A DNA stretch of 64,000 nucleotides, from NCBI GenBank assembly GCA_019455285.1, contig JACFMS010000003.1:72909-136908 (forward strand), in the 5' to 3' direction. The notes under the pieces are model-generated. The model was given only the letters and a program-made list of their open reading frames with translations. It was not told the DNA's origin and made no database searches. Below are positions 37,050 through 61,127 of this stretch, piece after piece. Within the stretch, counting starts at the first letter, position 1; each line of letters opens with the position of its first letter. The position numbers were made by a program, and so were the translations under genes. Source of the DNA: Sphingomonadales bacterium (GTDB lineage Bacteria > Pseudomonadota > Alphaproteobacteria > Sphingomonadales > Govanellaceae).

Positions 37050-37063
37050 TGGCGGAGAGGAAG
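37050..37063 (+). repeat. attL: 14-bp copy of the tRNA-Ser 3' end
   Basis: TGGCGGAGAGGAAG is identical to 61114-61127 at the 3' end of tRNA-Ser(GCU). It marks the left junction of the element; flanking bases differ on both sides. Confidence 0.75.
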
Positions 37064-37143
37064 TCCCCCAAACCTTTGATTTTTCTGAATTTTTGTTATC
37101 CAAAAATATCATTATTTCATAGCGATATACAGATACAATTGAC

Positions 37144-37207
37144 TGGACATGTCCATCTACGTCCGGCAGAATCCAACCTTAAAATGTAGGTTGAAATGTA
37201 GGTTGGA
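37144..37207 (+). promoter_or_regulatory. Integrase upstream region: palindrome and tandem arm-type repeats
   Basis: A perfect 12-bp palindrome, TGGACATGTCCA, lies at 37144-37155. TGTAGGTT occurs at 37185-37192 and 37197-37204, 12 bp apart. TCCAACCT (37172-37179) is inverted relative to AGGTTGGA (37200-37207). The same tandem TGTAGGT motif recurs near the right end (61041-61060), so these are probable arm-type recombinase sites. The palindrome may be a regulator site for the integrase gene. Confidence 0.6.
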
Positions 37208-37224
37208 ATGAAGCGGACGATCCA

Positions 37225-38469: not shown

Positions 38470-38515
38470 GCCAGGCCAACAAGCCTTTCCCTACGGTGCA
38501 TCAAAAACCATACAG

Positions 38516-39001
38516 ATGAAAGAAGCCTCAATGTCAGATACAGATTCGTCTCAAGCTATAAACGAGCCACCCCTCCACGAGCTTCGTGATCAACAGGACA
38601 TGCGAAGTTCCGAAGGGCATCCCATAAGCATCATTGATGCATTCCTGAAATGCTTTGATGAAAACGGAACACAGGTGTTCCAGATCCCCGGCCATGTCAT
38701 GACTGCATTAGCCAAGCGTTTTCAATATTTTATGGATGGTAACGCCCCAACACTAGATGAGGCTTTTGGCAATAAAACTGGACAACAACGTAACAAAGTG
38801 AAGATGGCAGCAAGAAATGGGGAGATCCTTTTTCATTTTCTCGATGAACTTGAGCGCGCTAGGAAAATCCCAGCTAAAAACCGGAACAGCACTCCGTTTG
38901 AAATCGCTGCAGAAAATACCGCAGAAGCCTTTGATACATCTGCTGACCATGTGAAGAAAATTTACAAGCTTTCGGGGCCTAAATCGCATCAAGGCGTATA
39001 A
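38516..39001 (+). CDS. Hypothetical protein downstream of the integrase
   Basis: This protein has up to 161 residues; ATG 38531 (MSDTDSSQAI) is an alternative start. It is acidic at the N-terminus and helical later (IIDAFLKCFDENGTQVFQIPGHVMTALAKRFQYFMDG; RNKVKMAARNGEILFHFLDELERARK). No family is recognised. It lies 46 bp after the integrase on the same strand, with lower GC than the metabolic genes that follow. An element-maintenance role is possible but not shown. Confidence 0.65.
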   Translation: MKEASMSDTDSSQAINEPPLHELRDQQDMRSSEGHPISIIDAFLKCFDENGTQVFQIPGHVMTALAKRFQYFMDGNAPTLDEAFGNKTGQQRNKVKMAARNGEILFHFLDELERARKIPAKNRNSTPFEIAAENTAEAFDTSADHVKKIYKLSGPKSHQGV

Positions 39002-39043
39002 AGCGCCCCCGGACGGTTGAGGACTTGCCTATGGGCAATCATA

Positions 39044-40129
39044 TCAACGATTCAGGCCTCTCAGCGCCTGGTCGATCACATGTTGTGCCCGCTCCCATAC
39101 GGCGCGGCGCCAATCCGCATTATTGGGATAAAATGCCTCGCGCAATGCGGCGGTAATTTCCTTTCCCTCGTTGCTGGCGGGATCACCGTGCTGCCACAGC
39201 CAATGGTCGCGCATCATGCAATCCATCACATGCTGGAACGGATAGGTGCCGAACTCCAGCACGATAGGCGCCACGGCCTTGTCTTTCAACAGACGGCGGT
39301 AGCCTTCGGTGGGATGGCCGTGGGTGGTGTAATAGTCCCCCTTGCCAGCAAGCGCTTCGTCCACAGGCGCGTTGATCCAGCCGCCATACCAGCCCCTTGC
39401 CACCGCCAGCGCCTCCCCAGTGTCCATGGAAGCGGCCATGCCATAGCCATATGGCCCCACGCCGGAATGGAAGTCCACGATCCCCACCGTGCGTGCTGTC
39501 GCGGCATGCTCCGCCAACACAGTCAGCAGCGTTTGTGCAGACCATGTTGGCTTCTGCCCGCCATAGCCGAAACCATCCGGATGGCTGTACTGCCCCGTCA
39601 TGATGGCGCGCATTAAGGCGTTGGCGCCGTTTCGTTGCGCATAGGCTTGCAATGCCGTATTGGCCTCATCCCGCGCCGGGCCATCCAACGCCGGACAGTT
39701 GATGGCATCATGAATGGCTTCGTAACCGGGGTTTTCCGGCAGCGGCTGAGCATAGTCGATGAAATTGCGGCACAGGTCCACATTGTCTTCGTTGTTGCGC
39801 CGCCCGGCAGCCGCGCCCCAGCAGTTGGTGCCGTGGATCAGCAGCACCGACGTGTCTGGTGGCAAATCGCCTGGGCCCCCGTTCACCAACCAGCCGGCCT
39901 GGCAGCCAGAGCCCACCATGGCTTCCGCACCATGCGCCCCGGACATCAGCACCAATAGCTTTGAGGCGGAGATGGGACCAAAGCGCACCACTTCAGTGCC
40001 GATTTCCTGGCCATTGGGCGCACCCGTGGGATTGACAAAGGTTTGAGGCGTACCGCCAGCGTATAGGCACGCCGCCTTAAAACGTTCCCGCGCTGTGAAG
40101 AAATCCCTGGAAAAGTATCGGTCCCTCAT
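39044..40129 (-). CDS. DUF2817 family protein (M14 carboxypeptidase-like)
   Basis: This 361-residue protein matches DUF2817, related to M14 zinc carboxypeptidases and aspartoacylases. The likely zinc motif is LMSGAHGAEAMVGSGCQAGWL near residue 65; later segments are LLIHGTNCWGAAAGRRNNEDNVDLCRNF and VGIVDFHSGVGPYGYG with a further His, and PIVLEFGTYP with an acidic residue. It would hydrolyse an amide or ester bond at a carboxy-terminal group. It is the last gene of the minus-strand metabolic cassette, coupled to the transporter gene by ATGA. Confidence 0.85.
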   Translation of the reverse strand: MRDRYFSRDFFTARERFKAACLYAGGTPQTFVNPTGAPNGQEIGTEVVRFGPISASKLLVLMSGAHGAEAMVGSGCQAGWLVNGGPGDLPPDTSVLLIHGTNCWGAAAGRRNNEDNVDLCRNFIDYAQPLPENPGYEAIHDAINCPALDGPARDEANTALQAYAQRNGANALMRAIMTGQYSHPDGFGYGGQKPTWSAQTLLTVLAEHAATARTVGIVDFHSGVGPYGYGMAASMDTGEALAVARGWYGGWINAPVDEALAGKGDYYTTHGHPTEGYRRLLKDKAVAPIVLEFGTYPFQHVMDCMMRDHWLWQHGDPASNEGKEITAALREAFYPNNADWRRAVWERAQHVIDQALRGLNR

Positions 40130-41481
40130 ACTGAGTACTCCACTGGTTTTTTGCTGCGGGCCTGGATACGACGCTTAATGACAGAATGGCGGTGTTCGGT
40201 GATGGGATAACGCCACAACAATAAGGCGGCCATCACAAGCGGCACACCCGGCAGCACCAGGCCCACAAGGGTTAGGGTGATCGTTCCTTGTACCGTCTGA
40301 TTGGCCGGGTCAAATCCGAAGTACTCCAACAACGGCAATGCGATACCGACACTGAACGCCAGTGCGCATTTGGCGAAGAAATTATAAATGGCCATATAAA
40401 GCCCTACGTCATCGCCGCCGCCCTTCCATACCGCGTAATCGGCGGTATCCGCTATGAGTGCTGTCGGCAATATCCAGATGGGCGAAATGGTGACACCCAA
40501 CACGGCGAACACCGCCATGGCATACCACTGATTGCCGCTGGGCACGGCCATAAGAAGCGGCAACGACAACGCCACCAACACGGATGCCATGGCCAGGGCA
40601 CGATGTTTGCCGATACCATTGGCCAGCCGCACAATGCCCGGCGTTGCCAAGGTCCCCACCATGAACTGCACAAACACCAGGACAAGAAAACTTGATTTAG
40701 GCAGCCCCACAGCAAACTCAATGACCATCAGCACGGCGGCATTGTAGATATGAAGGCCTAGCCACAGCAGAAACGTCGCCGACACTACCAACAGATACGG
40801 TTTGTTCCGCCGCAGAATGGATATCGTTTCAACAAGCGAGGGCGCAACCGATGTAGATAACGTATGTCCCGAAGGCACCCTCCACAAAGCGGCACCCACG
40901 CTGACAGGTAAAACCACTACCGTTATCACCAGAAACACCATCAGAATGCTGCCGATGGAAGGCTCACTGCCGGAGAAAATCAAGATGGGCAGCCCCGTGG
41001 CCAGCAAAACGCCCACGAACGTCGCCGCCTCCCGAAGCCCGACAATGCGGTTGCGCTCCCGGTAATCGGGGCTCAACTCGGCGCCCCAGGACAGATAGGG
41101 AATTTGCACCAGCGTCCAAGCCGCATAGTACGCCACGATGGTGACGATTAAATACACCATGCCAACACCGGGGCCCGGCATGAACAGCGCCCAAGTGGCC
41201 GCCACCAATATCGGCGTACCCACGGCGATCCATGGCTTGCGACGGCCAAACCGGCCGTGGGTGCGGTCGCCCAGCGCCCCGATCACCGGATCCAGCAGGG
41301 CATCCCAGGCCCGCGCCACAAAAAAGGCGATACCCACAGCCGACAGGCTAAGTCCCACTTCCGTGGCATAAAATGGTGGGATATAGACCACCAGCGCCAT
41401 ATTGAGAGCAGACAACACAATGGCTGGGGCGGCATAGGCCAACAGCAAAGGGAGATCAAGGCGGCCGTTTTTCTGGCTCAT
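40126..41481 (-). CDS. MFS transporter, GPH (MelB-like) family
   Basis: This 451-residue, twelve-helix transporter resembles the glycoside-pentoside-hexuronide:cation symporters. The MelB-like motif RAWDALLDPVIGALGDRTHGRFGRRKPWIAVGTP appears near residue 55, including the conserved Asp and Arg/Lys cluster. It would carry substrate across the inner membrane after the TonB receptor of the same cassette has moved it across the outer one. It overlaps the DUF2817 gene (ATGA). The substrate need not be a sugar; GPH relatives carry varied compounds. Confidence 0.88.
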   Translation of the reverse strand: MSQKNGRLDLPLLLAYAAPAIVLSALNMALVVYIPPFYATEVGLSLSAVGIAFFVARAWDALLDPVIGALGDRTHGRFGRRKPWIAVGTPILVAATWALFMPGPGVGMVYLIVTIVAYYAAWTLVQIPYLSWGAELSPDYRERNRIVGLREAATFVGVLLATGLPILIFSGSEPSIGSILMVFLVITVVVLPVSVGAALWRVPSGHTLSTSVAPSLVETISILRRNKPYLLVVSATFLLWLGLHIYNAAVLMVIEFAVGLPKSSFLVLVFVQFMVGTLATPGIVRLANGIGKHRALAMASVLVALSLPLLMAVPSGNQWYAMAVFAVLGVTISPIWILPTALIADTADYAVWKGGGDDVGLYMAIYNFFAKCALAFSVGIALPLLEYFGFDPANQTVQGTITLTLVGLVLPGVPLVMAALLLWRYPITEHRHSVIKRRIQARSKKPVEYSV

Positions 41482-41539
41482 GATCTCCCCTATGACATGC
41501 GGTTTGATGTGTTACCTGGCGGGAACAGTCATCATATAC

Positions 41540-43843
41540 CTAGAAATTGGTGCTGGCCACGACCCCGATTTCCCGCGGACGGTTGCGGTATTCGTAATCA
41601 CCAAATACCGCGTTGTAGGTGCCTGTGGTGGCGATCTTGTTGAACAGGTTGTTCACAAACAACTGCACCGACCAATTATCGTCCATGGCGTCTGCCCCGG
41701 CCCTTAGACCCACCAGCGTATATTTGCCGGCCTGACGGTTGGCGGGGTCTGCCGTATCCACCAGGCTGTTGTAGCGGCCCACATAACTGACATCCGCCCG
41801 CACCCAGCCGTCAAAACTTTGGGCCAGCGGGAAGCGGTATTGCACCGCGGCGCTGCCGCTGAATTTGGGCACGCCTGCCAACCGGTCGCCCTTGGCACCG
41901 AACAGCGGCACGGTTTCGCCAAGCTTCGCATCGGTGTAACCGGCGTTCAGGGTAATTTCCAGGTCATCGGTTACTAGTGCAGTCACATCCGCTTCCAGGC
42001 CATAGATGTTGGCGCTGGTAACGTTATCGAAAAAGGTAAAGCCGCAAAACAACTGTTTACGCAGCTGGATATTTTTCCAATCAATCTTATAGGCAGAGGC
42101 ATTGAGCAGCACACGCTTGTCGGCCAATTCGGCTTTGGCGCCCGCTTCATAGCTCCACAGTGAGTCGGAATCGAACGAGACCGGGCTATTGGTAAGATTA
42201 AGCTCATCCAGTTCGGCAGCGCATTCCGGCGTATTGGGAATGGGCTGATTAAAGCCGCCCACCCGATAGCCTTTGGACGCAGTGGTATAGACCAGAAGCG
42301 TTTCACTGGCGCGGAAGGATGCGGTGATTTTCGGATTGAAGCCGTTTTCCTTGGAACTGCCAGCCCTGAAAGTGGCGCCTGGCGCAATAAAAGCGCTCAA
42401 CGGATTGCCGTCGAACACAAAGTTTTGCTTTACATCAAAGTACCGGCCACCCGCAGTCAGGCTGAATTCTTCTGTGATGTCCAGTGTCACTTCACCAAAT
42501 AGCGATACCTGGCGCAAATCCTGGTCGACGTCGGATTGGAAAACGTTGGGAAATACGCCATCCAGCAGCAGGGCCGGGAACTCATTAACCACGGTGGCGC
42601 CGAAGAAATCATTGATGCCTTCATAGGGGGCATCTTGTATGAAGTTCTTATCTAACTTGGAATAATAGACGCCAAGTACATAATTCAACTTACCTTCGCC
42701 GTTAGAGGCAATGCGCAATTCTTCCGTAAAATCATCATATTTGTTGCGGTTCAGCAACTGTGATGATGGGTCCAGTGTGCCAAACACAATGTCCATGAAT
42801 GCCGTCGTGTCCTGCCGGTCCAGGTTCCACCGTTTGAAATACGAGGTGGACGATGTAATCGTAGCTGGACCCAGATCGTAATCGATGACAGCGTTGAAGA
42901 TGTCGACCTTGTCGCGATTGAAGGGTTCTATATAATTTTCCGTGGTCAAATGGTTGCCGGTGATGACCGAACTGGTACCCTTCACCCGAAATTCGCGGCG
43001 CATGTATTTCAACTGTACACGCAAATCTTCCGACAAATCTGCCATCAAGTTGGCGCGCACCGACCAGGAATTGTCGGTATTGAAATCCTTGCGCCCTGGC
43101 ACTTTCTGCGATGGCCCAAAGCCGGGCCCAACCAGATCAACCGTGTTGTCGATAAACCCACCCGTATGACCAGCGGACATCACCACCCGCAGCGCCACTT
43201 TATCTTCCACCAAGGGCGCATTTATCATTGCATCGCCGGAATAGGATTCACCGCCGGACTTGGTGGTGGATAGCCGCCCGCGCAGGTTCACTTCAAACTG
43301 ATTGGCATCTGGCAGCTTGGTAATATAACGAACGGTACCGCCCATGGAGCCTGCGCCATAAAGAGTGCCTTGCGGGCCTTTAAGCACCTCGATGCGTTCC
43401 AGGTCAAAGAGGTTCAAATCCGGCGACGCGCCGTTTTCATTGTTGGTGCCGCCCGCATTGGTAATGGTTACGTCGTCGATGTATACACCTACGGTTTCCT
43501 GCGGCTCGGATTCGGTGGAGCTGGACACACCGCGAATTTTGATCTTCTTACGGTTGTTGCCCGCGTCAAACACTGCGAATCCGGGTATTTTAGGGCCGAT
43601 GTCGAACAAGCCTTGCGCGCTGGACGATGACAGCTCGGATGCGGACAAGGCGCGTATGCTGGCGGGCACGTCCTGCAGGGATTGTGCGCCACGCTTTTGC
43701 GCCGTCACGACGATCTCTTCCAGGCCGCTTTGGGCGTGCGCCGTGGGAATCAAGGCAAAAATACTAACCATGGGCGCCGCCAGCCGCATCCAATACCTGG
43801 GGGCAGGATTGCCGTATTGCTTTGACCTGTCACTGGTTTTCAT
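41540..43843 (-). CDS. TonB-dependent outer-membrane receptor
   Basis: This 767-residue receptor starts at ATG 43843, preceded by GGAGAAGG; a longer frame begins at 43882. The signal peptide ends near residue 38 (LIPTAHAQ), followed by LEEIVVTAQKR and a plug with RIEVLKGPQGTLYGAGSMGGTVRYITK. Barrel motifs YTTASKGYRVGGFNQP and WSYEAGAKAEL place it in the same broad group as the window's other two receptors. It is encoded within a cassette with aldehyde and alcohol dehydrogenases, suggesting uptake of an alcohol or polyether-like substrate rather than iron. Base composition is similar to neighbouring cassette genes. Confidence 0.93.
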   Translation of the reverse strand: MKTSDRSKQYGNPAPRYWMRLAAPMVSIFALIPTAHAQSGLEEIVVTAQKRGAQSLQDVPASIRALSASELSSSSAQGLFDIGPKIPGFAVFDAGNNRKKIKIRGVSSSTESEPQETVGVYIDDVTITNAGGTNNENGASPDLNLFDLERIEVLKGPQGTLYGAGSMGGTVRYITKLPDANQFEVNLRGRLSTTKSGGESYSGDAMINAPLVEDKVALRVVMSAGHTGGFIDNTVDLVGPGFGPSQKVPGRKDFNTDNSWSVRANLMADLSEDLRVQLKYMRREFRVKGTSSVITGNHLTTENYIEPFNRDKVDIFNAVIDYDLGPATITSSTSYFKRWNLDRQDTTAFMDIVFGTLDPSSQLLNRNKYDDFTEELRIASNGEGKLNYVLGVYYSKLDKNFIQDAPYEGINDFFGATVVNEFPALLLDGVFPNVFQSDVDQDLRQVSLFGEVTLDITEEFSLTAGGRYFDVKQNFVFDGNPLSAFIAPGATFRAGSSKENGFNPKITASFRASETLLVYTTASKGYRVGGFNQPIPNTPECAAELDELNLTNSPVSFDSDSLWSYEAGAKAELADKRVLLNASAYKIDWKNIQLRKQLFCGFTFFDNVTSANIYGLEADVTALVTDDLEITLNAGYTDAKLGETVPLFGAKGDRLAGVPKFSGSAAVQYRFPLAQSFDGWVRADVSYVGRYNSLVDTADPANRQAGKYTLVGLRAGADAMDDNWSVQLFVNNLFNKIATTGTYNAVFGDYEYRNRPREIGVVASTNF

Positions 43844-43974
43844 AACCTTCTCCTCCATCATTATTGCTGTGGTTTTCGTCATTTTGCTATCCTCTGCATA
43901 TCATCTTTGGGGCGGCGGAACTTATGGCCGAAGCACCCGTTGTTATGCCAAAGCCACAATCCGCGTGTTGCCTG

Positions 43975-45480
43975 TCACACCAAAAATTCTATAGCTTTCA
44001 GGGTTGTATATGATTTGAGACCCGCCATGCCGAATTCAACGCCAAACCCAGACTGCCCCATAGGCTCGGACGCCAAGGCAAAACCGCTGCCTTCGCCATG
44101 GGGGGCAGAGGCCTGCACCCGCACTTTGCCGGCGCGTACCCCGCGCCCCATCCGCACGCCCCGCGCCAAGCTCTGCGTCCATATGGTGGCCGCCAAACCG
44201 TACTGGGTGTCATTGGCATGGCGGAGCGCCTCGTCTTCGCCTTCAAATGTCTGGACAGTCAGTACCGGACCAAAAACTTCCTGTTGCAAAATGGCTGTGC
44301 CGGGCTGGACACCGGTCAACACGGTAGGCGTGATGAACAACCCACCGGTTTTCTGATGTGCGGCATGGCCGCCCGCCATCACCCGCGCACCATCCTGTTT
44401 CGCTGTTTCAATATGGCGCAGAATATTGTCAAAAAACGGCCGCCCTGCAATGGCGCCAAATCGCGTTGCCGGGTCCAGCGGGTCCGCCGGCTGCCAGTGT
44501 TGCAGGATATCGGCCGCTGCGGCAAAAAACTGGTCTTCCAATCCCTTTTCGATCAACAACCGGCACCGGGCGACGCACACTTGGCCCTGATTCCAAAACG
44601 CATCTTGTATCAGCGATTCAGCGATGGCATCCAAATCAACCCCATCGTTGAACACCACTTGCGGCGACTTACCACCACATTCCAGCAGCACGCGCTTGAA
44701 GCCATGGGCAGCGGAGTTTTCCATTATTTTCGCCCCCGTGGCCGTGGACCCCGTGAAGGTCACCATGTCGACATCGGCATGACGCGACAAGTCACGGCCC
44801 GCGCCATGCCCCAAGCCGGATAATACATTCAACACTCCGGCGGGCAGGCCTGCTTCTGCGGCAATGCCAGCTAAAGCCAGCGCCGAAAGGCTGGCAATTT
44901 CCGATGGCTTCAAGACCACTGAATTGCCGGCGGCCAATGCCGGTGCGATTTTCAGCGATGCATTAATGATGGGAAAGTTCCAAGGCACGATAGCGGCTAC
45001 CACACCTACCGGCTCCATAACGCTTATGCCCAGGGCGGTGTGGTCGCTGGGCGCCACGGCGCCATAAATCTTGTCCAACGCCTCGCCATAGTAGCGGAAG
45101 AAACTGGCCGCCACCGTCACTTCCTGCAAAGCACTGGTGATGGGCTTGCCCACTTCCAGACAGTCCATCAGCGCCAGATCAACCGCTGCCGCCTCCATCC
45201 GCTCGGCGATACCGATCAGCACCGCCTTGCGCGCCAGCGGCCCTTGGCCGACCCATGCCCGGTGATCAAAGGCATGCCGCGCAGCCAGCACCGCCTGATC
45301 CACATCCCTTTGTGAACACGATGGTAACCGCGCCACTACTTCGCCCGTGGCAGGGTTCACGCTGTCGAAGGTATCGCCTGCATCCGCTCTGCGGTACGCA
45401 CCATTAATGAATGGCCGGGGTTCATGCACAAGACCGGCGGCACGGGCATGCCACTGGGCCGCCGTCGTAGGCTGGTTCAT
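43975..45480 (-). CDS. NAD(P)-dependent aldehyde dehydrogenase
   Basis: This 501-residue aldehyde dehydrogenase has an intact active site: LLECGGKSPQVVF with the general-base Glu, and DAFWNQGQVCVARCRLLIEKG with the nucleophile Cys. PWNFPIINASLKIAPALAAGNSVVLKPSE and TGSTATGAKIMENSAA form the cofactor fold. It resembles PuuC/betaine-aldehyde-type enzymes. It lies between the TonB receptor and the GMC dehydrogenase on the same strand (35 bp after the latter). It probably oxidises the aldehyde that the GMC enzyme makes. Confidence 0.94.
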   Translation of the reverse strand: MNQPTTAAQWHARAAGLVHEPRPFINGAYRRADAGDTFDSVNPATGEVVARLPSCSQRDVDQAVLAARHAFDHRAWVGQGPLARKAVLIGIAERMEAAAVDLALMDCLEVGKPITSALQEVTVAASFFRYYGEALDKIYGAVAPSDHTALGISVMEPVGVVAAIVPWNFPIINASLKIAPALAAGNSVVLKPSEIASLSALALAGIAAEAGLPAGVLNVLSGLGHGAGRDLSRHADVDMVTFTGSTATGAKIMENSAAHGFKRVLLECGGKSPQVVFNDGVDLDAIAESLIQDAFWNQGQVCVARCRLLIEKGLEDQFFAAAADILQHWQPADPLDPATRFGAIAGRPFFDNILRHIETAKQDGARVMAGGHAAHQKTGGLFITPTVLTGVQPGTAILQQEVFGPVLTVQTFEGEDEALRHANDTQYGLAATIWTQSLARGVRMGRGVRAGKVRVQASAPHGEGSGFALASEPMGQSGFGVEFGMAGLKSYTTLKAIEFLV

Positions 45481-45515
45481 CGTTATTTGCTCCGTATGGT
45501 CGTAAATTTATTCTG

Positions 45516-47123: not shown

Positions 47124-47342
47124 GTTGTTGCTCCTTAATTTTTGAGACCATAAAGGGGACCTGGCGGCAAATCATATGGGAACGTCACATGAAAGTATGC
47201 TAAATGCCCAATTTAGACCCTGACAAGACATCACCATCCCGGGGGTGCTTGACGGCCAAGCCAAGGCCTGCCACTCTTGGCTGCAAAATGTATGGCTCCT
47301 TAAATCCGGAGCCCTCAGACGTTTTTAAAGGCTGGGAACCCT

Positions 47343-52332: not shown

Positions 52333-52766
52333 TTTCGATCACTCGCTCCGCGTTGTCCTCCTCCGCAAAGCGGGGGAGGGGAACCGCCGAAGGCGGTGGA
52401 GGGGGCGGCTCCGCGCACAGCTACCGCTGCGATCATGGCGAAAACATTGCCGAGCCCGCGCTCGTTTAGAATGTCCGCTGCCTTGAACCGCAACACTTCG
52501 ATCCCGCGCTGCGCCAGCCATGCCGCTCGTCGTTCGTCATGTGCGGCCTGCGCGGCGCCGTCATGGACTGCTCCGTCGACTTCGACAGCGAGCTGGTGAG
52601 AGGCGCAGTAGAAATCAAGAATGTACGGTCCGATCGGATACTGTCGCCGAAAGCGCAATCCGCCGCAGCGTGTGCCGCGCAGCTGCTGCCACAGCAGAAC
52701 TTCCGGCAGCGTCATCTTACGCCGCAAGGCACGGGCGCGCTTGAATGTCAGGGCCGGCGCACGCAT
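52329..52766 (-). CDS. DUF559 endonuclease-like protein
   Basis: This 145-residue protein has a DUF559 core, a very-short-patch-repair (Vsr)-like PD-(D/E)XK nuclease fold: RARALRRKMTLPEVLLWQQLR, FRRQYPIGPYILDFYCASHQLAVEVDGAVHD with the acidic metal ligands, and WLAQRGIEVLRFKAADIL. The core ends near residue 117. The last 28 residues are encoded by a dispersed repeat (52359-52412) that has entered the reading frame. It is coupled to the helicase gene by ATGA. DUF559 genes are often carried next to restriction-modification genes. Confidence 0.9.
   Translation of the reverse strand: MRAPALTFKRARALRRKMTLPEVLLWQQLRGTRCGGLRFRRQYPIGPYILDFYCASHQLAVEVDGAVHDGAAQAAHDERRAAWLAQRGIEVLRFKAADILNERGLGNVFAMIAAVAVRGAAPSTAFGGSPPPLCGGGQRGASDRK
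52359..52412 (+). repeat. Dispersed GC-rich repeat, copy C
   Basis: CTCCGCAAAGCGGGGGAGGGG followed by ACCGCC-GAA-GGCGGT and GGAGGGGGCGG is the inverse-orientation relative of copies at 52768-52821 and 53614-53667. It contains its own short hairpins and lies inside the 3' end of the DUF559 gene. Confidence 0.7.
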
Positions 52767-52767
52767 C

Positions 52768-52821
52768 CGCCCCCTCCACCATGCTGCGCATGGTCCCCCT
52801 CCCCCGCTTTGCGGGTGAGGA
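52768..52821 (-). repeat. Dispersed GC-rich repeat, copy A
   Basis: This copy lies directly before the DUF559 start codon. It is part of a longer direct repeat of about 90 bp (52762-52856) shared with 53608-53701. Read on the minus strand, the bases before it (52822-52886) encode DDEMMKVLSA-stop, resembling the end of the methyltransferase gene (GDEVMKVFSA-stop). Confidence 0.75.
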
Positions 52822-52886
52822 TCATGCCGAAAGTACCTTCATCATCTCGTCGTCCGCAAAAGATCGGCCTCTTTCAACATATTGCT

Positions 52887-53612
52887 CTAAAACGGTATTT
52901 CCTCATCCTCAATCTGCTGGTGCATAGCCTTAATCTCGGCCATCCGAGCCTTCGTCGCGGAATCACTTGTGAGAATGGACGCGATTTCTTCGGCGACACC
53001 GGCGGCATCCCGCCCCCGTCGCAGAATTGCTTGGTCCTTCGATATGAAGCCTTTTGGGTCTTCATCCATTCTCAAGGAAATAATTTTCATCCCTCGGCCT
53101 AACGCGAAGCCAATCTCCTGCTGTGTCCAAACGCTTTCCGAGAACCCGCGCGTATGGATAGTCAGCATGGCGTCCATTGTAAATAATGCCCGCTCAATTT
53201 CCTTCTGCCATTCCTTTGTCGGTGTTATGTCTTCGTGTGCAACGAACCCCGCAATGTGATGGGATGCGAGCGTTTCCTTCAAACGCTTCGCTTTATCCTT
53301 GTGAATCGCAATATGACTTACGAAGAGGCGGAAAACGTCATTCTGCTGCCAAACCTGAGGTGGGGAGACCGCGAAGGAAGCTATTGACGGTATGTTGACT
53401 TCCAGCTCCTCAGCTATGGCTGTTAAAACCTTGTCATCTGCGTTCTTCAATGCTTCCTTCGAATACACCCATTTGCTGTTGTAACTGATCGGACCGGACG
53501 GAGGAGAAATGCCAAAAGCATTTAGAAAGACGTCAATGTCGGAATAGCCATACTTGGCTTGCAATTCCCTACCAAGCTTGTCGATCAGTTCCAGTCGCTG
53601 TTTGACTCGCAT
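52887..53612 (-). CDS. TIR-domain protein, candidate defence NADase
   Basis: This 241-residue protein has an N-terminal helical domain of unknown type (residues 1-80: LIDKLGRELQAKYGYSDIDVFLNAFGI, then NSKWVYSKEALKNADDKVLTAIAEELE). A TIR domain follows from about 93 to 200: VFRLFVSHIAIHKDKAKRLKETL, then IERALFTMDAMLTIHTRGFSES and VWTQQEIGFALGRG. Glu166 is the probable catalytic residue of NAD-cleaving TIR proteins. Such proteins kill or arrest phage-infected cells by NAD depletion. The gene is bracketed by a duplicated repeat, lies between the methyltransferase and DUF559 genes, and has lower GC than both. Confidence 0.88.
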   Translation of the reverse strand: MRVKQRLELIDKLGRELQAKYGYSDIDVFLNAFGISPPSGPISYNSKWVYSKEALKNADDKVLTAIAEELEVNIPSIASFAVSPPQVWQQNDVFRLFVSHIAIHKDKAKRLKETLASHHIAGFVAHEDITPTKEWQKEIERALFTMDAMLTIHTRGFSESVWTQQEIGFALGRGMKIISLRMDEDPKGFISKDQAILRRGRDAAGVAEEIASILTSDSATKARMAEIKAMHQQIEDEEIPF

Positions 53613-53613
53613 C

Positions 53614-53667
53614 CGCCCCCTCCACCATGCTGCGCATGGTCCCCCTCCCCCGCTTTGCGGGTGAGGA
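53614..53667 (-). repeat. Dispersed GC-rich repeat, copy B
   Basis: Identical to copy A (52768-52821) over its full length. It fills the gap between the methyltransferase stop (53668) and the TIR start codon (53612). Confidence 0.75.
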
Positions 53668-56583
53668 TCATGCCGAGAACACCTTCATCACCTCGTCGCC
53701 CAGGTGGTTGATGACTTTCACCGCGATGCGGCCGGATTTGGGTTTGGGGAAGGGGCGTGACGTATCGCTATGCAGGCTCTCCCAGGCTTCCTCGTCAATC
53801 TCGGCTTTGAGGGTGGTTTTCAGCGCCTTATAGGGATCGTTGGCGCCCAGGAAGTAGGCGTGGCGGACGAAGAAGCTTTCCTCGTTATAGTCGGTATCCA
53901 GCATCCACAGGGCGATGCCGTCGGTGCCCTCGCTCACCACCTCGCCGGTTTGCGGCTTGAACACATCGACGCCATAGACCCGCACCCGGATCATGCCATC
54001 ACCCGCATCCTCGATCTTGATGTCGGGTTCGCCAAAGATCACAAACAGGTTGCCGGTGGCGGTGGATTTCAAATCGCCGCCCATGTGCAGATCGGGGTTC
54101 ATGCGCGCTTTTAAGACCGGCACGCGGCCCAGCTTGTCAAACTCCGCCGAGTGGGCGTCATAGTTGAAGGCGCAGGCAATCAGCACGTCAAACCCGGCGT
54201 CGCCCGCCTCCCGCGCGGCGGCCACCAGATCGGGGCGGCTCACCGTGCCGAACTCCGGCCCGATGAACACCCCGGCGCGGCGTTGTTTATCGCCTTCCAT
54301 AAACACGCCTTCGGCGCAGATGAAATTGCCGGGCCAGCCCGTAAGGCTCGTGAACGTGATGCGGTCTTCCTTGTGGGCCTGCTGCACCCCGGCGGTTTTC
54401 AGGTTTTCCAATATCATGTGGGCGAAATCGGTGACGATGTCGTCCTTACCCGGCGCGCCATACCGGCCTTCGGCGGCGGCCAGGGTATCGATCAGTTCGT
54501 CATCCCAATCCACCGCCAGGGTGCGGTGGGGCGACAGGCTTTCCACGGTGAACGGCCCGGCCACCCGCACCCGGCCATTGTCCACGTAAGGCTTGTCGTA
54601 GAGATATTCAAACTCGGCCTTGGCGGCGATGGAGGCGTCAATTTCCCGCTGCCGGGCGATGCGGGCGTCCCAGAATTGCGCCAGCGCTTTTTTGGCCGGC
54701 GCGGGCCACTGGTCTGGTGCTGCGCGGGGGATTTCCCATTCCATGAAGCCGGCGGCGGGCGCGGCCTCGCCGGAGGGCAACGACACCTCCCCCATTTGCC
54801 GAAAGTCGATGGTCTTGCCGGCGCGGCCGCCGGTTTCCACCTTGAACGGTGTCCCGTGACCTTTCAGCGCCGCGTTGAGCGCAGCGCGTGCCGCATCCAC
54901 CGCGGGCTGCTTTTGATCCCAGATGACGTCAATCTCGGCGTTGTTGGCGATGGATTTCAGGGTGATGTGCGGCACGCGCTCGTAAACAAAGCCGTGGCGG
55001 ATGTCGCCCCGGGTGGGGGTGGTTTTGGGCACTTGCCTTGTCACCTCCCCTTCCTTGTGCTGGCCTTCCGGGCTGTCGGCCAGCAGGTAATAGGGATAGC
55101 GCGCGCCCATCAGGCGCGATCGGGCCAGCGCAATGGCAACGCGGCTGGTATCAATGGTGATCCAGCGCCGCCCCCACTGTTCCGCCACATACGCCGTGGT
55201 GCCGGAGCCGCAGGTGGGGTCCAGCACCAGATCACCCGGATCGGTGGTCATCAGGATGCAGCGTTCGACTGTTTTGGAGCCAGTCTGTACGACATAGATT
55301 TTATCATCAGTGAAGTTACCGGTTCCCGTATCAGTCCAAATATTTGAGATCGGAAGGACACCAGAATCTGAATGAAAGCGGCGATAACGGAAGCTATTTG
55401 AGGCGAGGTGTAGACGTTCTGACCTCGCGAGACGTTGTATTCCTGCGGAATAGTTTGGCTTCCAATGCGAGTTTTTAGGCCAAGGGTCTTGTATTATACC
55501 TCGGTAGCTATACGGTTGCGGTTCTGAAGCGCGTCCCTGAGAAATTAAATTGTCAGGATTATATGGACGCGCTCCGCTTGGAATCGCTTGACCTTCGTCC
55601 TTCTCCTTAACGCTAACACTTCGGTAGCTGAAATCATTTAGTAATAGCCAAGTTGCATTTCCGCTCCCTAACTCAAATGGTTTTTCGCGGTATATTGGGC
55701 GAACCTTGAGCCGTTCTTTGTTTTTGCAGAACCAAACAATGTAATCTGCAACGTTGGATACCGCATTTGCTGAAAACCCGTAAGTTTTTTGTACGACCAA
55801 CGTGCTAATGGCATTCTCTTCCCCAAACACCTCATCCATCAGCGCCCGCACCCGGTGTACGTTTTCGTCGCCGATCTGCACGAAGATGGAGCCGCTTTCA
55901 TGCAGCAAGTCCCGCGCCACGGTGAGGCGATCACGCAAATACGTCAGGTATGAATGAATGCCGTCGCGCCAGGTGTCGCGGAAGGCGCGCACCTGTTCCG
56001 GTTCCCGGGTGATGTGATCCTTGGCGCCGTCCTTCACATCGCGGGATGTGGTGGACCACTGGAAGTTACTGTTGAACTTGATGCCATAGGGCGGATCGAA
56101 ATAGATGCATTGCACTTGTCCCCGCAGCCCTTCCCGCTCCGCCAGGCTGGCCATCACGGATAAACTGTCGCCCGATATCATGCGGTTGGACCAGTGCTGA
56201 TCGTGGGCGTAAAATTCCGTCTTGGCTTCCAGATCAAGGCCGTTGAAATCGGCAAACAGATCGGGCATGGCGGGATGGGCTTCGGCGGCGCGCGCCTTTG
56301 ACACCCGCTTTAAATCATCGATGATGACCTTGGGGTGGACTTTTTCCTGAATATAGAGCGGCGGCGCGTGGACGATCAGGTCGGACCAATCCACCACGTC
56401 CTTGCCGCGCCACACCAGTTGCGGGTCCAGGTCCGGGTTGCGCCGTTCATAGGCCAACTGAATGGGGGTTTTATCTTCCGCCCGCATGACGCTTTCAAAT
56501 TCCGCCGTGGGGATGTTCTTGCGCGTCGCCGCCTCATGCTTCAGCGCTTCCACTTCCAGGGGCTTTTTCGGTTTTTTGGCCAT
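53668..56583 (-). CDS. Type III-like DNA methyltransferase (Mod)
   Basis: This 971-residue site-specific methyltransferase of the N4/N6 beta class has the catalytic motif IV first (CIYFDPPYGIKF, DPPY at 163-166). The AdoMet-binding motif I comes later (VLDPTCGSGTTAYVAEQWGRRWITIDTSR). The long C-terminal half, with TFTSLTGWPGNFICAEGVF and FGEPDIKIE, probably includes target recognition. It pairs with the restriction subunit at 57760-60810, from which it is separated by two short frames. Its ATG overlaps the NYN gene stop (TGATG), so translation is coupled. Confidence 0.93.
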   Translation of the reverse strand: MAKKPKKPLEVEALKHEAATRKNIPTAEFESVMRAEDKTPIQLAYERRNPDLDPQLVWRGKDVVDWSDLIVHAPPLYIQEKVHPKVIIDDLKRVSKARAAEAHPAMPDLFADFNGLDLEAKTEFYAHDQHWSNRMISGDSLSVMASLAEREGLRGQVQCIYFDPPYGIKFNSNFQWSTTSRDVKDGAKDHITREPEQVRAFRDTWRDGIHSYLTYLRDRLTVARDLLHESGSIFVQIGDENVHRVRALMDEVFGEENAISTLVVQKTYGFSANAVSNVADYIVWFCKNKERLKVRPIYREKPFELGSGNATWLLLNDFSYRSVSVKEKDEGQAIPSGARPYNPDNLISQGRASEPQPYSYRGIIQDPWPKNSHWKPNYSAGIQRLARSERLHLASNSFRYRRFHSDSGVLPISNIWTDTGTGNFTDDKIYVVQTGSKTVERCILMTTDPGDLVLDPTCGSGTTAYVAEQWGRRWITIDTSRVAIALARSRLMGARYPYYLLADSPEGQHKEGEVTRQVPKTTPTRGDIRHGFVYERVPHITLKSIANNAEIDVIWDQKQPAVDAARAALNAALKGHGTPFKVETGGRAGKTIDFRQMGEVSLPSGEAAPAAGFMEWEIPRAAPDQWPAPAKKALAQFWDARIARQREIDASIAAKAEFEYLYDKPYVDNGRVRVAGPFTVESLSPHRTLAVDWDDELIDTLAAAEGRYGAPGKDDIVTDFAHMILENLKTAGVQQAHKEDRITFTSLTGWPGNFICAEGVFMEGDKQRRAGVFIGPEFGTVSRPDLVAAAREAGDAGFDVLIACAFNYDAHSAEFDKLGRVPVLKARMNPDLHMGGDLKSTATGNLFVIFGEPDIKIEDAGDGMIRVRVYGVDVFKPQTGEVVSEGTDGIALWMLDTDYNEESFFVRHAYFLGANDPYKALKTTLKAEIDEEAWESLHSDTSRPFPKPKSGRIAVKVINHLGDEVMKVFSA

Positions 56584-57398
56584 CAGTTCTCCAACTCCTG
56601 CGCGTCTTCTCTGCTTTCGGTGCGCAGAACGGAAACCAGCCCGTCGATGTGCTCGAACAGGTCATCTTGAACGTTCTGCCACATGGGGTCGAGGATGAAC
56701 TCGACGCCCTCTCGGCGAGCCAGTTTTGCAGCCGGCACGAAATCACTGTCGCCGGTCACTAAGATGATAGTGTCAGCCTGCTTCTTCAGCGTGATCGACG
56801 TGATGTCGAGACCGATCCGCATATCAACACCCTTCTGGCGCAGACCGAGCGTGATGTCGTCCTCGCCGAAGTCCTTCCATGTCGCGACCAGTTTTTCGAG
56901 GCTTCGCCGTTGTTCTTCCGTAAGACCGGGGAAACAGCCATCGCCTGTCAGATGAGCCTCCAGGAGAGGTAGCCATTCCCTGGTCCTGAGAAGTTGTTTG
57001 GTCAGACGGGCGGGAATCTGCCAATCGCTTTCCTTGGTCACCTTGCCCAGGCGTAAGGCGAATTTCCGCTTCTGGCGGAGTTCCTGAAAAAGTTCTTCGC
57101 GGAATAGGGCTTGGGCGGTCCTGGAAAATTCGATGCGGCGATTGGTCACCGGATTATGGGCAACACCGTCGTAGGGACGGGCATCATAGTAGAACAGCCG
57201 GTAGACATGATCCAGCCAACGGCTGTTTTTTGCCTTTTCGGGCTCGCCGATCAGACGCTGAACATGGCGCTTACAGAGAATACGGGCGGCCTCGGCCACG
57301 GTTTGCGGCGTTCCACAGAAACGGTCGTCAACCACCTTGGGCAGCCGCTTTATGAAAAAGCCCCCGTCTATGAGGACCGCGATACGCCGGGTCCTCAT
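56583..57398 (-). CDS. NYN-domain (PIN-like) nuclease
   Basis: This 271-residue protein has an NYN fold related to PIN/FLAP nucleases. The acidic pocket is visible as VLIDGGFF (Asp11), QKGVDMRIGLDI (Asp192, Asp198) and ILVTGDSDFVPAAK (Asp217, Asp219). The central part (about 50-180) is helical and basic. NYN proteins of the LabA/DUF88 group are predicted RNases. It starts where a decayed DinD frame ends and is coupled to the methyltransferase gene (TGATG). A 17-bp palindrome lies 111 bp upstream of its start, so it may have its own regulated promoter. Confidence 0.92.
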   Translation of the reverse strand: MRTRRIAVLIDGGFFIKRLPKVVDDRFCGTPQTVAEAARILCKRHVQRLIGEPEKAKNSRWLDHVYRLFYYDARPYDGVAHNPVTNRRIEFSRTAQALFREELFQELRQKRKFALRLGKVTKESDWQIPARLTKQLLRTREWLPLLEAHLTGDGCFPGLTEEQRRSLEKLVATWKDFGEDDITLGLRQKGVDMRIGLDITSITLKKQADTIILVTGDSDFVPAAKLARREGVEFILDPMWQNVQDDLFEHIDGLVSVLRTESREDAQELEN

Positions 57399-57763
57399 GG
57401 CCTTTCCCTCTCGATCGGGAAGCGGTCAACAAAAAAGCCCCAGGATTTCGGCACACGCTCGGGATAAATGAGCGGGCGTACTCTCAAGGGGCGGATGTAT
57501 GCCCTATATAGGACATTATGTCCTAATGAACAATGAAAATAGTTGCATGACATGCAACGGCCTTTCGGCGCTTGGAGCCTTCTTTTTATATCAATCTCTT
57601 GATAAATATTGTTTTTTTCTCTGGATTTCTGTCCGAAGCCAAGGTCGACCATTTTGTTAACGTCAACAAAAAGGTCCCGGACAAGCCAATGTTCAACGCT
57701 GGGTTCGATTAGGGCATGGCCTTCAAACGTCTCGGTCAATTGGTGCACCAGTTCGGATTTCAT
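57395..57763 (-). pseudogene. DinD-like gene remnant with internal deletion
   Basis: This 122-codon frame starts like DinD/BRO-type proteins (MKSELVHQLTETFEGHA, VEHWLVRDL). It then jumps directly to FVDVNKMVDLGFG, which in intact DinD proteins lies some 45 residues further on. After about residue 50 the similarity stops; the rest reads through the promoter region of the NYN gene. I interpret it as a deleted remnant, by comparison with remembered family sequence. Its start overlaps the restriction gene stop and its stop overlaps the NYN start (both ATGA-type), so a short product could still be made. Confidence 0.6.
57509..57525 (-). promoter_or_regulatory. 17-bp palindromic operator upstream of the NYN gene
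   Basis: TAGGACATTATGTCCTA at 57509-57525 is a perfect palindrome around one central T, embedded in TATA-rich sequence. It lies 111 bp upstream of the NYN start codon inside the degenerate part of the DinD remnant. The form suggests a dimeric repressor site controlling NYN and methyltransferase expression separately from the restriction gene. Confidence 0.6.
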
Positions 57764-60700
57764 GCCCGCATCCCCTTATTGATTAGGCCGCCCATCAACT
57801 TCCCAAACTCCGCCTCGATCTCGAACACCTCGGTGAATTCGGCAAAGGCCCAGCGGCCGTATTTACCCAAATTATTCACCCCCGGCACCCAGTAGGCGCG
57901 CATGGTGTTGGCCTTTTCCTTGGCGTCTTCGCCCCGGTAGCCTTTGATTTCCACAATCAGGTTCAACGGCTCCGCCTGGCCGTCGTCCACCTGGACAATG
58001 AAGTCCGGAATGTATTTGCGCGGGGTGGAGCCCATCAGGTACGGCACCTCCAGCCCCAGATTCTGGTTCTTGACGTAAGCGCGCACATTCGGGTGCGCTT
58101 CGGCGACGCGGCAGAACTCCGCCTCCCAATCACTGTCGCACACCACCCAGTTGACATGGCATTTGCGGGGATCGGTTTGCCAACGCAACTCCTTTGACGT
58201 GGTGAAGTTGACATAGCCGGAAGACCCGGTGGGATTATAGGCATCCAGAATGGCCTTTACCGGGTTGTCGCCCACCAGGGTTTCGGTGATGGCGGCCTTG
58301 ATGCGCTCCGCCGCCATATCGGCGATTTCCTGATACAGCAATTGCGCCGGATAAGTGCCGCCGGAACATTTCAGATAGCCGCCGTCCAGCCAGGCCTTGG
58401 CAATGCGCTTTAATTGGCCGAACAGATGCAGCTTCGGTTCCGCCCCCGGATCGCGGTACTTGTTGTAAAGCAAATGGCGAGCCAAGTGGAACAGGATGGT
58501 GGAGGGCCGCATGTCTTGCAGATGCTCCACCGTCAGATCAACGCCTTCGCCGATGATGCCCTGGTTCTTGGTCACCGACGGGCCCACCAAGTCAGGCGTC
58601 ATGTGCAGCACATGGTCGGGGCCGAAGTTGGCGGACAAGCGTTCTTCCGGCAGTTCCACCCGGTAGCCTTCCACCCGGGGGAAGGTCATTTCCAGGGCGT
58701 CGCGATCCGGTTTGACGGCATGGACCCGCACCGTTTCCCGCGCCTTGGCCGGCGGCGCCACAACCGGTTTGGCGGCGAAATCAAAGGGGATGCCCAGCAC
58801 ATCGGCGTATTCAACGTTGAACAAGCCGTCTTCGTTCAGGTCATAGGATTGGCGGCGCAAACCCCGGCCCACCACCTGTTCACACAGCAACTGGGTGCCG
58901 AAGGCGCGCACGCCCAGGATGTGGGTGACGGTGTTGGCGTCCCACCCTTCCGTCAGCATGGAAACGGAGACGACGCATCTGATCTGTTCGCCCAGTTTGC
59001 CTTCCTTGCCGACGGTATTCATCACCTCCCGTAACAATGTGGCGTCGTCAATATTATCCCCGGCGCGGCTGTCGCCAGTGCGTTCGATCATCTCGCGGCG
59101 GAAGCGCTCAATTTCATCCGCCGCCATGTCGCGAAAATCTTTATCGAGCGCTTCGCCCGATTCCAGTTGGGCGGAATCGATCAGAATGGTATTGGGCTGC
59201 GGCAAGCGATTGCCATAGTCGTCGTAATTGCGGAACAGCGCCAGGCGGCCGTTTTCCAAGGTGCTGGTACCGTCGTCGTTCTGGCGCTGAAAGCCGGAGA
59301 TGTATTTGTAGATCAGCTCAGACGTGGAGGTGTTGTTGCACACCACAATGAACACCGGCGGGATGCTGATGCCCGCCTGCCGCCACAGGTCAAAGGTTTT
59401 CTGATAGTGGCCGTAGAGCGCTTCCAACGCCGTGATGAGATCGGCGGGCAAACTTAAAGGATCCAGCGTTTTACCGGACCCGCCCCGCCCTTTCTTCGGC
59501 AGCTTCTTGCCGATATGCTCCCACAGATTGCGGAACTTCGGCGTATCGCCGCCGGGGACATTATCCGCCACCGGCACCCGCGGCAGCTTGACGATGCCGC
59601 ATTCGATGGCGTCCATCAGCGAAAAGTCGCTCATGGTCCAGGGGAACAAGGTGCCTTCGGCATAGCCCGAGCCGCGCAGGAAAAAGGGCGTGGCCGACAG
59701 GTCATAAACCAGCGAAATGCCCAGCTTGCGCTTCACCGCCTCCAGCCCCGAAATCCATAGCCGCGCGGCTTCGTTGTTGGCCTTGGCCTCGTCCTTGTCT
59801 TCGCCCTTCAGATCGTCTGCCGTCTCATCGGCGGCATCCTGCACCTTTTCCCGATAGCAGTGGTGGGCCTCGTCATTGAGCACCACAATGTGCTTCATGC
59901 CCATCAGCTCCGGCATGACGCGTTGGAGCATCTGACCTTCGGTCTCCAACGTCTGGAGTTTTTCGCCTCGCCAGCCCTCCAAGGCGTCCCGGGTGCCTTT
60001 GGCGACCGAAATCCGCTCCCGCAACTTGAAGGCGTGATAGTTGGTGATGACGATCTTGGCCCGATCGATGTCACCCAGCATGTCCGGGGGGACGATCTCC
60101 CGATTGCGGTAATAGTTGTCCAGATCATTGGGCAACAGCACCCGCAGCCGGTCCTTGATGGTGATGCCGGGGGCCACCACCAGGAAGCCGCGGGAGAATG
60201 TTTTACTATTTGAGTGCCGCACCGCGTTCACGGTCTGCCAGGCAATGAGCATGGCCATGACCGTGGTTTTGCCGGCGCCCGTAGCAAGCTTTAATGCCAG
60301 CCGCATCAGCTCTGGGTTGGCCTGGGCATTGCCGCCTTTTATGTGGGCCCAGAACTTGGCCACCCGGGGGCCCATTTTGGGCGCCACCTCGGTCAGCCAG
60401 ATGGCGGTCTCCACCGCTTCGACCTGACAGAAGAACGGGCGGACGCCCTCGAATTTATGGTGCCGCCAGTGCTGCAACAGGCGGGCGGTTTCCGGCGTCA
60501 CCAACCATTGTTCGGGGTTGGGCAGGTTGCGCCACGCCTCCACATAGGTGCGAATCTCATTTATGATGGGGGTGGGGTTATATTCCTGTCCGTCAGTGGA
60601 GAGCCTGGCATCCCGCTCCAGGGCTAGGTCACCCTGGTCCTTAGTCTGCCGTCTTTTCTTGGGCTGCGGCACGGGCGTGATTAAATCGGAACGGCGGCGG

Positions 60701-60810
60701 CTTTCAATTATGCGATTGGTGGGCTGGCCATCCTTATCCAATTCCCAGTGTTGGGCCGGGTATTCATATGGTGAGTTGAGAATTGGACGTTCAAAAAAAC
60801 TCTCAGCCAC
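57760..60810 (-). CDS. Type III-like restriction endonuclease subunit (Res, BPTD_3080-like)
   Basis: This 1016-residue superfamily 2 helicase-nuclease has Walker A LATGAGKTTVMAML (176-182) and the DEAH box VVLNDEAHHCYREK near residue 310. VSVMSLTEGWD-type motif V appears as VSVSMLTEGWDANTVTHILGVRAFGTQLLCEQVVGRGLRR. The C-terminal PD-(D/E)XK nuclease region is KYIPDFIVQVDDG and LNLIVEIKGYRGEDAKEK. It cuts DNA in cooperation with the Mod subunit encoded downstream. It is first in the minus-strand defence region, next to the right end of the element. The family name is by recollection; type III-like is the safe description. Confidence 0.93.
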   Translation of the reverse strand: MAESFFERPILNSPYEYPAQHWELDKDGQPTNRIIESRRRSDLITPVPQPKKRRQTKDQGDLALERDARLSTDGQEYNPTPIINEIRTYVEAWRNLPNPEQWLVTPETARLLQHWRHHKFEGVRPFFCQVEAVETAIWLTEVAPKMGPRVAKFWAHIKGGNAQANPELMRLALKLATGAGKTTVMAMLIAWQTVNAVRHSNSKTFSRGFLVVAPGITIKDRLRVLLPNDLDNYYRNREIVPPDMLGDIDRAKIVITNYHAFKLRERISVAKGTRDALEGWRGEKLQTLETEGQMLQRVMPELMGMKHIVVLNDEAHHCYREKVQDAADETADDLKGEDKDEAKANNEAARLWISGLEAVKRKLGISLVYDLSATPFFLRGSGYAEGTLFPWTMSDFSLMDAIECGIVKLPRVPVADNVPGGDTPKFRNLWEHIGKKLPKKGRGGSGKTLDPLSLPADLITALEALYGHYQKTFDLWRQAGISIPPVFIVVCNNTSTSELIYKYISGFQRQNDDGTSTLENGRLALFRNYDDYGNRLPQPNTILIDSAQLESGEALDKDFRDMAADEIERFRREMIERTGDSRAGDNIDDATLLREVMNTVGKEGKLGEQIRCVVSVSMLTEGWDANTVTHILGVRAFGTQLLCEQVVGRGLRRQSYDLNEDGLFNVEYADVLGIPFDFAAKPVVAPPAKARETVRVHAVKPDRDALEMTFPRVEGYRVELPEERLSANFGPDHVLHMTPDLVGPSVTKNQGIIGEGVDLTVEHLQDMRPSTILFHLARHLLYNKYRDPGAEPKLHLFGQLKRIAKAWLDGGYLKCSGGTYPAQLLYQEIADMAAERIKAAITETLVGDNPVKAILDAYNPTGSSGYVNFTTSKELRWQTDPRKCHVNWVVCDSDWEAEFCRVAEAHPNVRAYVKNQNLGLEVPYLMGSTPRKYIPDFIVQVDDGQAEPLNLIVEIKGYRGEDAKEKANTMRAYWVPGVNNLGKYGRWAFAEFTEVFEIEAEFGKLMGGLINKGMRA

Positions 60811-61113
60811 TGTCCCCCCTTACGCCATTTTGTCAGCCCTGGAGGGACGATACAGTCCACATCTTTATATCTCAATATTTTTATACTCAAATCCACTGGG
60901 AGTTGTCGTGTGGGAAAAGGCTCACTTGCACCCGTTCGGGCAAATGAGGCTAAGGATTACCTATCGCTGCGAGGGCGACACCAGACAGCGCCGACAGAAG
61001 CAACAAGCCATAAAGCGTGGCCATTAAGTGCATAAAAATTTGTAGGTTAAAATGTAGGTCGTGAATAATTATTTTAATAATATTCATATAATTCAATAAA
61101 TTATATGAATAAA
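60811..61113. other. Right-end region of the element
   Basis: No gene is visible in these 303 bp. TGTAGGTT at 61041-61048 and TGTAGGTC at 61053-61060 repeat the tandem pattern upstream of the integrase. A perfect 12-bp AT-rich inverted repeat (61082-61093 and 61099-61110, 5-base loop) lies just inside attR, immediately downstream of the tRNA gene. The restriction gene promoter must also lie here, above 60810. Confidence 0.6.
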
Positions 61114-61127
61114 TGGCGGAGAGGAAG
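61114..61127 (+). repeat. attR: 14-bp core at the tRNA-Ser 3' end
   Basis: TGGCGGAGAGGAAG covers the CCA, acceptor strand and first T-arm bases of tRNA-Ser. It matches attL at 37050-37063 exactly. Confidence 0.75.

Follow-up and report, generated by a model that had tools for sequence, protein, structure and literature searches.

Does the tyrosine integrase gene found far from an intact tRNA-Ser(GCU) gene in this stretch of Sphingomonadales DNA mark the other end of a single integrated element and, if so, why does it stand at the end away from the tRNA? The stretch that we analysed (64,000 nucleotides, hereafter the window, out of 3.3 Mb for the complete genome) most likely contains, from 37050 to 61127, an integrated genomic island of ~24.1 kb, whose integrase recombines a circular form of the element with the 3' end of the tRNA-Ser gene; we give this reading a probability of roughly 0.88. 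The presence of an island with the tRNA-Ser(GCU) at one end, the integrase at the tRNA-distal end, and both ends visible is well supported.

Island ends and integrase

We called tRNA genes with ARAGORN and assigned the domains of island frames with Pfam, NCBIfam, and PADLOC; the Pfam scan covered 17 island frames, those outside it being mainly smaller, and six proteins were also scanned against PHROGs. The features on which the argument turns are:

37050–37063, plus strand: putative tRNA-distal attachment-site copy, TGGCGGA + GAGGAAG, followed by the element-side core arm TCCCCC (37064–37069)
37185–37203, plus strand: integrase-side candidate arm-type sites, TGTAGGTTGAAATGTAGGT, one of two such places in the genome
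37225–38469, plus strand: tyrosine integrase (Arm-DNA-bind_3, Phage_int_M, and Phage_integrase domains)
61041–61059, plus strand: tRNA-side candidate arm-type sites, TGTAGGTTAAAATGTAGGT, conserved in the same-genus genome G001
61114–61127, plus strand: putative tRNA-side attachment-site copy, arm TGGCGGA + 7-bp overlap GAGGAAG, forming the 3' end of the tRNA with its CCA
61114–61207, minus strand: tRNA-Ser(GCU), the target gene, intact, with CCA encoded (ARAGORN)

As the sequence-only reading of this DNA had reported, the 14-bp sequence TGGCGGAGAGGAAG occurs exactly at 37050–37063 and 61114–61127, in both places on the plus strand, the far copy being a displaced fragment of the tRNA 3' end in the same orientation as the tRNA. 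This match by itself is modest evidence for element ends, as up to two mismatches give four matches in the window, a number also reached by one of 100 shuffles; between the island ends, the sole match (at 52314) has two mismatches. Only one more exact copy exists in the genome, on contig C12, and we rejected it as a second target: it falls within a frame identified by reading as TonB-receptor-like, with no tRNA in its 3-kb locus.

The ends become convincing because of a second repeat, the tandem pair TGTAGGTTNAAATGTAGGT, which, with up to two mismatches allowed, is found in exactly two places in the 3.3-Mb genome, one at each end of the island, and nowhere else. G001 retains the tRNA-side pair exactly, the bases on both sides of it having diverged. 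We interpret these pairs as candidate arm-type sites to which the integrase may bind.

The integrase gene is complete and starts 161 bp inside the left repeat copy; its three Pfam domains, its conserved residues, and its position at the end away from the tRNA all bear out what had been claimed for it. R251, K278, H340, R343, H367, and Y377, which we take to be the catalytic residues, reach a rounded frequency of 1.00 when 96 integrases, that of the window among them, are aligned. NCBIfam gives PRK09692 as the sole match, under that model's cut-off, and among the six proteins scanned against PHROGs the integrase alone received a named function. The earlier remark that no conjugation genes are visible holds for the 17 Pfam-scanned frames, which contain no relaxase, coupling protein, type IV secretion, or conjugation families; structural phage, packaging, primase, and AlpA families are absent from them as well.

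Related integrases and the two polarities

Matches to the window integrase occur in 146 of 296 genomes of the same order (E ≤ 1e-40) and in 33 of 385 genomes of a class-wide draw (E ≤ 1e-100). Our survey took the best 60 places from the order-level match list, added 34 of the 36 places listed in the class-wide draw (the other two, in G000 and G013, were already in the set) and one named record, Azospirillum argentinense p1, reaching a total of 96 integrases with the window included. In the survey loci of 20 kb, a tRNA more than ~19 kb from the integrase escapes detection, and several loci are cut by contig ends; distal islands, as defined below, are therefore undercounted.

A target could be assigned for 71 of the 96 integrases, and it was always a tRNA-Ser. 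In a proximal class (41 of 71) this tRNA lies 131–280 bp upstream of the integrase with its CCA toward it, and in a distal class (30 of 71, L154 being assigned from the tRNA position only) it is encoded on the opposite strand, 4.6 to 24 kb downstream, with its 3' end facing the integrase. Among related tRNA-Ser integrases, the far-end position recurs as a class that mirrors the proximal one, and it is no oddity of the window island; the sequence-only reading, which had found this layout unusual, was right about the position but not about its peculiarity.

The distal islands repeat the anatomy of the window. An exact 14-bp copy of the island's own tRNA 3' end stands 165–282 bp upstream of the integrase in 28 of the 30, the exceptions being L167, whose copy has one mismatch, and L154, which has no copy; none of 2,827 internal control windows of 420 bp contains such a copy. 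The shared run stops exactly at base 14 in 26 of 29 islands (the L167 mismatch falls within it, and in L260 and L274 it is longer). The six bases that follow the copy match TCCGCC within one mismatch in 23 of 30 islands, exactly in 14, and the equivalent place inside the tRNA is never TCCGCC-like (0 of 30), reading GGATTC or AGATTC. Among proximal islands, 14 of 41 have an exact far copy in reach, preceded by GGCGGA (at most one mismatch) in seven. Judged from these alignments, both classes share, in mirror image, the putative core GGCGGA-N7-TCCGCC or a degenerate version of it. With up to two mismatches, this core is also found upstream of the integrase in 18 of the 25 survey rows lacking an assigned target (one of them being the tandem core of G013 described below) and, by the same test, in one of the 41 proximal rows (L272). 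Of the 30 distal islands, 28 have the same 7-bp overlap as their own tRNA; the overlap of other targets is matched in 0.15%.

Runs shared between the integrase side and the tRNA side were tested in 20 distal islands, window included, and exceeded the control in 11, that is, they were of a length reached by no more than 5% of internal control windows. Where such arm-like repeats were found, nearly all lie 50–78 bp from the tRNA and 21–104 bp from the integrase.

Integrases that are 95–96% identical (the pairs L163/L166 and L156/L164) use different isoacceptors, each with the matching overlap. Both polarities coexist within one genome in three genomes. At ~595117 on contig C1 of G013 (L167/L211), a distal island and an integrase of a proximal clade stand back to back on one shared core, GGCGGA-CTTCGTC-TCCGCC. 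The tree of the 71 target-resolved integrases, from which the 25 others were left out, requires nine changes of polarity, shuffled labels requiring ~23; six of the nine are forced by branches with support of at least 95, and a single distal clade is rejected (approximately unbiased test, p 3e-31). A tree of 61 order-level rows, ignoring those lacking a target, gives four changes. Polarity thus appears, from these trees, to have changed repeatedly.

As candidates for the circular form, the top match listed among plasmid records is 51% identical to the window integrase and that among phage records 48%. Out of ten phage and plasmid records read, four look proximal-type by reading (phages DMCA, Acica, and Alfacinha3 and a Blastomonas plasmid), five have no recognisable site, and Azospirillum p1 contains an integrated distal island. 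We dropped the idea that the distal polarity places the cargo under the tRNA promoter, as the nearest frame runs in the direction of the tRNA in 11 of the 20 distal islands considered, without bias.

The G001 locus, the cargo and other possible histories

We compared the flanks with 60 genomes, among which G001 is the only one of the same genus. On contig 3 of G001, identity with the window is 93% as far as 34677, and the left flank matches again from ~36958 to 37055. BLAST leaves this second match unreported, but its local alignment score is 50, compared with at most 26 for 1,000 shuffled sequences, and no other window among 413 scores as high. Since this alignment ends at GGTGGCGG, six bases into the repeat, it supports the left boundary at 37050, one part of what the sequence-only reading had expected from a relative lacking the element. 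The interposed 2.3 kb (34678–36957), which carries a SLAC1-type channel gene and is missing from G001, lies outside the island; we considered 34678 to ~36957 as a part of it and rejected this, the region being outside the repeat and a separate difference from G001.

Between its ends, the island carries the following genes:

38516–39001, plus strand: 161-aa protein (h161) beside the integrase; its G001 homolog has 81% amino acid identity over residues 36–159
39044–48362: metabolic cassette with DUF2817, MFS_2 transporter, TonB receptor, aldehyde dehydrogenase, and GMC oxidoreductase genes (all minus strand) and an AraC regulator (plus strand)
49090–49365, plus strand: 91-aa protein, partial homolog in G001
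50242–52332, minus strand: UvrD-like helicase, third gene of the Res-Mod-UvrD block
52329–52766, minus strand: DUF559 protein (Pfam/NCBIfam)
52887–53612, minus strand: TIR-domain protein, 100% amino acid identity with the G001 copy
53668–56583, minus strand: type III-like Mod methyltransferase
56583–57763, minus strand: variable slot between Mod and Res, with a NYN-domain protein and a 122-aa protein (DUF3800 and Bro-N proteins in the G001 slot)
57760–60810, minus strand: Res helicase-nuclease, a BPTD_3080 family restriction endonuclease (NCBIfam)

A metabolic cassette and a defence region had both been noted earlier and are indeed present, but they do not form a single unit, since G001 has the defence block without the metabolic cassette. 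There it stands beside the tRNA-Ser and is ~94% identical at the nucleotide level except for 55269–55812 and 56584–57804. The metabolic cassette is absent as such from the G001 locus, which has distant homologs only and carries ~30 kb of other cargo (Fic, DNA-methylase/ParB-like, peptide-transport, and PF00144 hydrolase genes). Relatives with the island genes but neither integrase nor repeat, which had been named beforehand as evidence against an island, are thus represented in part by G001, which has the defence block. From these comparisons, the 24-kb unit is best read as a mosaic of a shared defence block and a newer metabolic cassette, with the integrase end probably lost or replaced in G001.

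An alternative history, which we regard as unlikely though deserving consideration, is a composite hotspot, in which the defence block has long stood beside the tRNA-Ser in the genus and a smaller integrase element with the metabolic cassette arrived later. It overlaps the mosaic part of our own reading, and the odds of the two are not exclusive. The identity of the G001 defence block (~94%), which occurs there without integrase or metabolic cassette, is near that of the left flank (93%), and the segment 38996–48392 looks like a separate insertion because h161 and the 48.4-kb region have homologs that adjoin in G001. Nevertheless, the same arm-site pair at both outer ends of the island, together with the tRNA-side pair kept in G001, fits one integrase system, and the interior contains only the two-mismatch copy of the repeat.

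Much less probable is a secondary origin of the distal position, through loss of an adjacent conventional island or integrase, or through inversion of the island after integration. Tandem arrays at one tRNA do exist, as the two integrases of G013 illustrate, but 29 of 30 distal islands have the direct repeat (at most one mismatch) close to the integrase start, at the distances given above, and more than half of those tested have arm-like repeats above control at both ends. A chance match with no element behind it, for which the shortness of 14 bp and the one shuffle equalling its four loose matches might be invoked, has a negligible probability, since the repeat lies precisely where the tRNA ends in CCA, both island ends carry the arm-site pair, and 29 of the 30 distal islands, but none of the control windows, show this anatomy.

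Several observations weigh against an island of the kind proposed, or against changes in its polarity. No excisionase was recognised in the Pfam scan of 17 island frames or among the six proteins scanned against PHROGs, and no empty site, the other part of the earlier expectation, was found in the 60 genomes: G001 alone shares both flanks beyond a short match, and its site is occupied by a related mosaic. Nor was a circular junction seen. G001 has no match to the window integrase (E ≤ 1e-40 genome-wide, 1e-4 in 58 kb) and no exact copy of the distal 14-bp repeat at its locus. As its defence block is nevertheless there, along with the tRNA-side arm sites, this block can be maintained where the mobile module is missing. 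Arm-like repeats are weak in three of the 20 distal islands tested, and six share no 9-mer. The mirror arm is missing (within one mismatch) in seven of 30 distal and seven of 14 measurable proximal islands, and weak left arms were read in three phages. The closest relatives of the window integrase by identity are L260, distal (55.3%), and L258, proximal (54.6%), the latter being nearest by tree path (support 97). The tree of 71 integrases is a quick one without bootstraps and with one long branch (L192), and the closest pair of opposite polarity, L173/L176, is only 61.6% identical, so that no flip has been caught in the act.

As for the cargo itself, the best solved sequence relative of the GMC oxidoreductase (45516–47123) is a chloramphenicol-inactivating oxidoreductase (8b7s, E 3.7e-190). 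We dropped the idea that the metabolic cassette is a Peg-like (polyethylene glycol) operon, a phrase absent from the papers listed in a literature search. In the defence block, Mod scores 1263.6 bits with PADLOC MTase_III, and Res 1374.3 bits with NCBIfam BPTD_3080 and weakly, 34.5 bits, with PADLOC REase_III; two genes separate Res from Mod. The Res-Mod-UvrD block (50242–60810) recurs in other phyla, judged by record titles. Among the best 80 of 572 confirmed Res loci (L041–L120, some cut by contig ends), Mod is present in 74 and UvrD in 52; measured between tblastn ends, gaps longer than 300 bp separate Res from Mod in 50 of the 73 loci that allow the measurement, and Mod from UvrD in 43 of 51. 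In these loci, the three genes for Res, Mod, and the UvrD-like helicase thus recur as a block interrupted by two slots of variable content. The Mod stretch 55269–55812, divergent from G001 within a gene that is otherwise ~94% identical, is probably the target-recognition region, in which specificity would have been swapped.

The TIR gene is flanked by 94-bp direct repeats (52762–52855 and 53608–53701, 95% identical) that contain the Mod 3' end and a palindromic repeat, and the DUF559 frame sits between inverted copies (~78%) of part of that repeat. A search at E ≤ 0.001 recovered it from this locus alone, in both G000 and G001, and gave nothing in G003. Beside its Bro-N gene, G001 has another 94-bp duplication (88%), derived from the Mod start region (G001:C3:47991–48084 and 48966–49059, in L029). 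The TIR and Bro-N cases are alike in that an inserted accessory gene is accompanied by a duplicated end of its neighbour.

A possible polarity switch and known systems

In the mechanism that we propose, the integrase would bind the core arm GGCGGA on one side of the 7-bp overlap GAGGAAG and a near-mirror of that arm, here TCCCCC, on the other, as well as the paired arm-type sites TGTAGGTTNAAATGTAGGT on either side of the core. Strand exchange within the overlap would duplicate one arm plus the overlap, generating the 14-bp repeat. Known tyrosine integrases exchange strands across ~7 bp, between inverted core arms in the cases described (PMC8371274, PMC10111431, PMC3715440). With the tRNA-matching arm of attP, the attachment site of the element, pointing away from the integrase, integration would leave the integrase at the far end and a tRNA with restored 3' end followed by cargo. 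The island may still excise today, and may be transferred.

Where the arms are near-mirror images, the overlap is the only strongly asymmetric part of the core. We put at even odds the broader proposal that tRNA-Ser islands can switch polarity in the course of evolution: with a near-palindromic attP core in which the 7-bp overlap alone sets the sense, one integrase family could insert its island either way round, and lineages would flip repeatedly between integrase and cargo beside the tRNA. The near-palindromic core would permit rare reverse integration with a mismatched overlap, fixing a new overlap, and this same use of mismatched sites may switch the isoacceptor frequently and the polarity only occasionally. 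Since serine isoacceptors differ between near-identical integrases, the rule that governs target and polarity lends itself to a direct test with one integrase and a handful of attachment-site variants.

Island studies often expect the integrase beside the tRNA, and detection restricted to the tRNA neighbourhood would miss the distal class. If true, a polarity switch bears on integrase regulation and on the back-to-back stacking of islands on one core. For tRNA-adjacent integrases, the overlap of the integrase promoter with the recombination site has been proposed to depend on integrase orientation, in a study that also cites a survey as placing the integrase beside the tRNA (PMC2951348). Regulatory consequences might follow here too; the integrase still begins beside an attachment site, one without a tRNA. 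In the literature searched, we found no description of polarity switching within one tRNA-integrase family, and an earlier mention is possible.

Like the tRNA islands of Islander (PMC4383910), this island has a tyrosine integrase inside, a tRNA left intact, and a 3' fragment displaced without change of orientation; the end occupied by the integrase, not discussed in the part of that paper used here, is in our survey tRNA-distal in a recurrent class. The InTr shapes of the KplE1 intS study (PMC2951348) differ in how the integrase is oriented toward the tRNA, which that study argues is important for integrase regulation; islands with a distal integrase fall outside that survey because it was filtered for tRNA-adjacent integrases. 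In another sphingomonad, Sphingobium fuliginis, the integrase element of pPDL2 recombines experimentally at a seryl-tRNA 3' end (PMC3516476); it differs in that its attP was reported at the 3' end of int1. ICEBs1 (PMC3715440) has 5-bp inverted repeats around a 7-bp crossover and uses secondary sites, one gene in both orientations, mismatched overlaps leaving ends with different crossover sequences; its secondary insertions are rare and poorly excised, whereas the reversed polarity described here is widespread. Among streptococcal integrative and mobilizable elements (PMC5357655), two tyrosine integrase families target rpmG, with the integrase adjacent to it in one and at the opposite end in the other. 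Those are separate families with a protein-coding gene as target, in contrast with the related integrases, tRNA-Ser targets, and apparently repeated switches found here.

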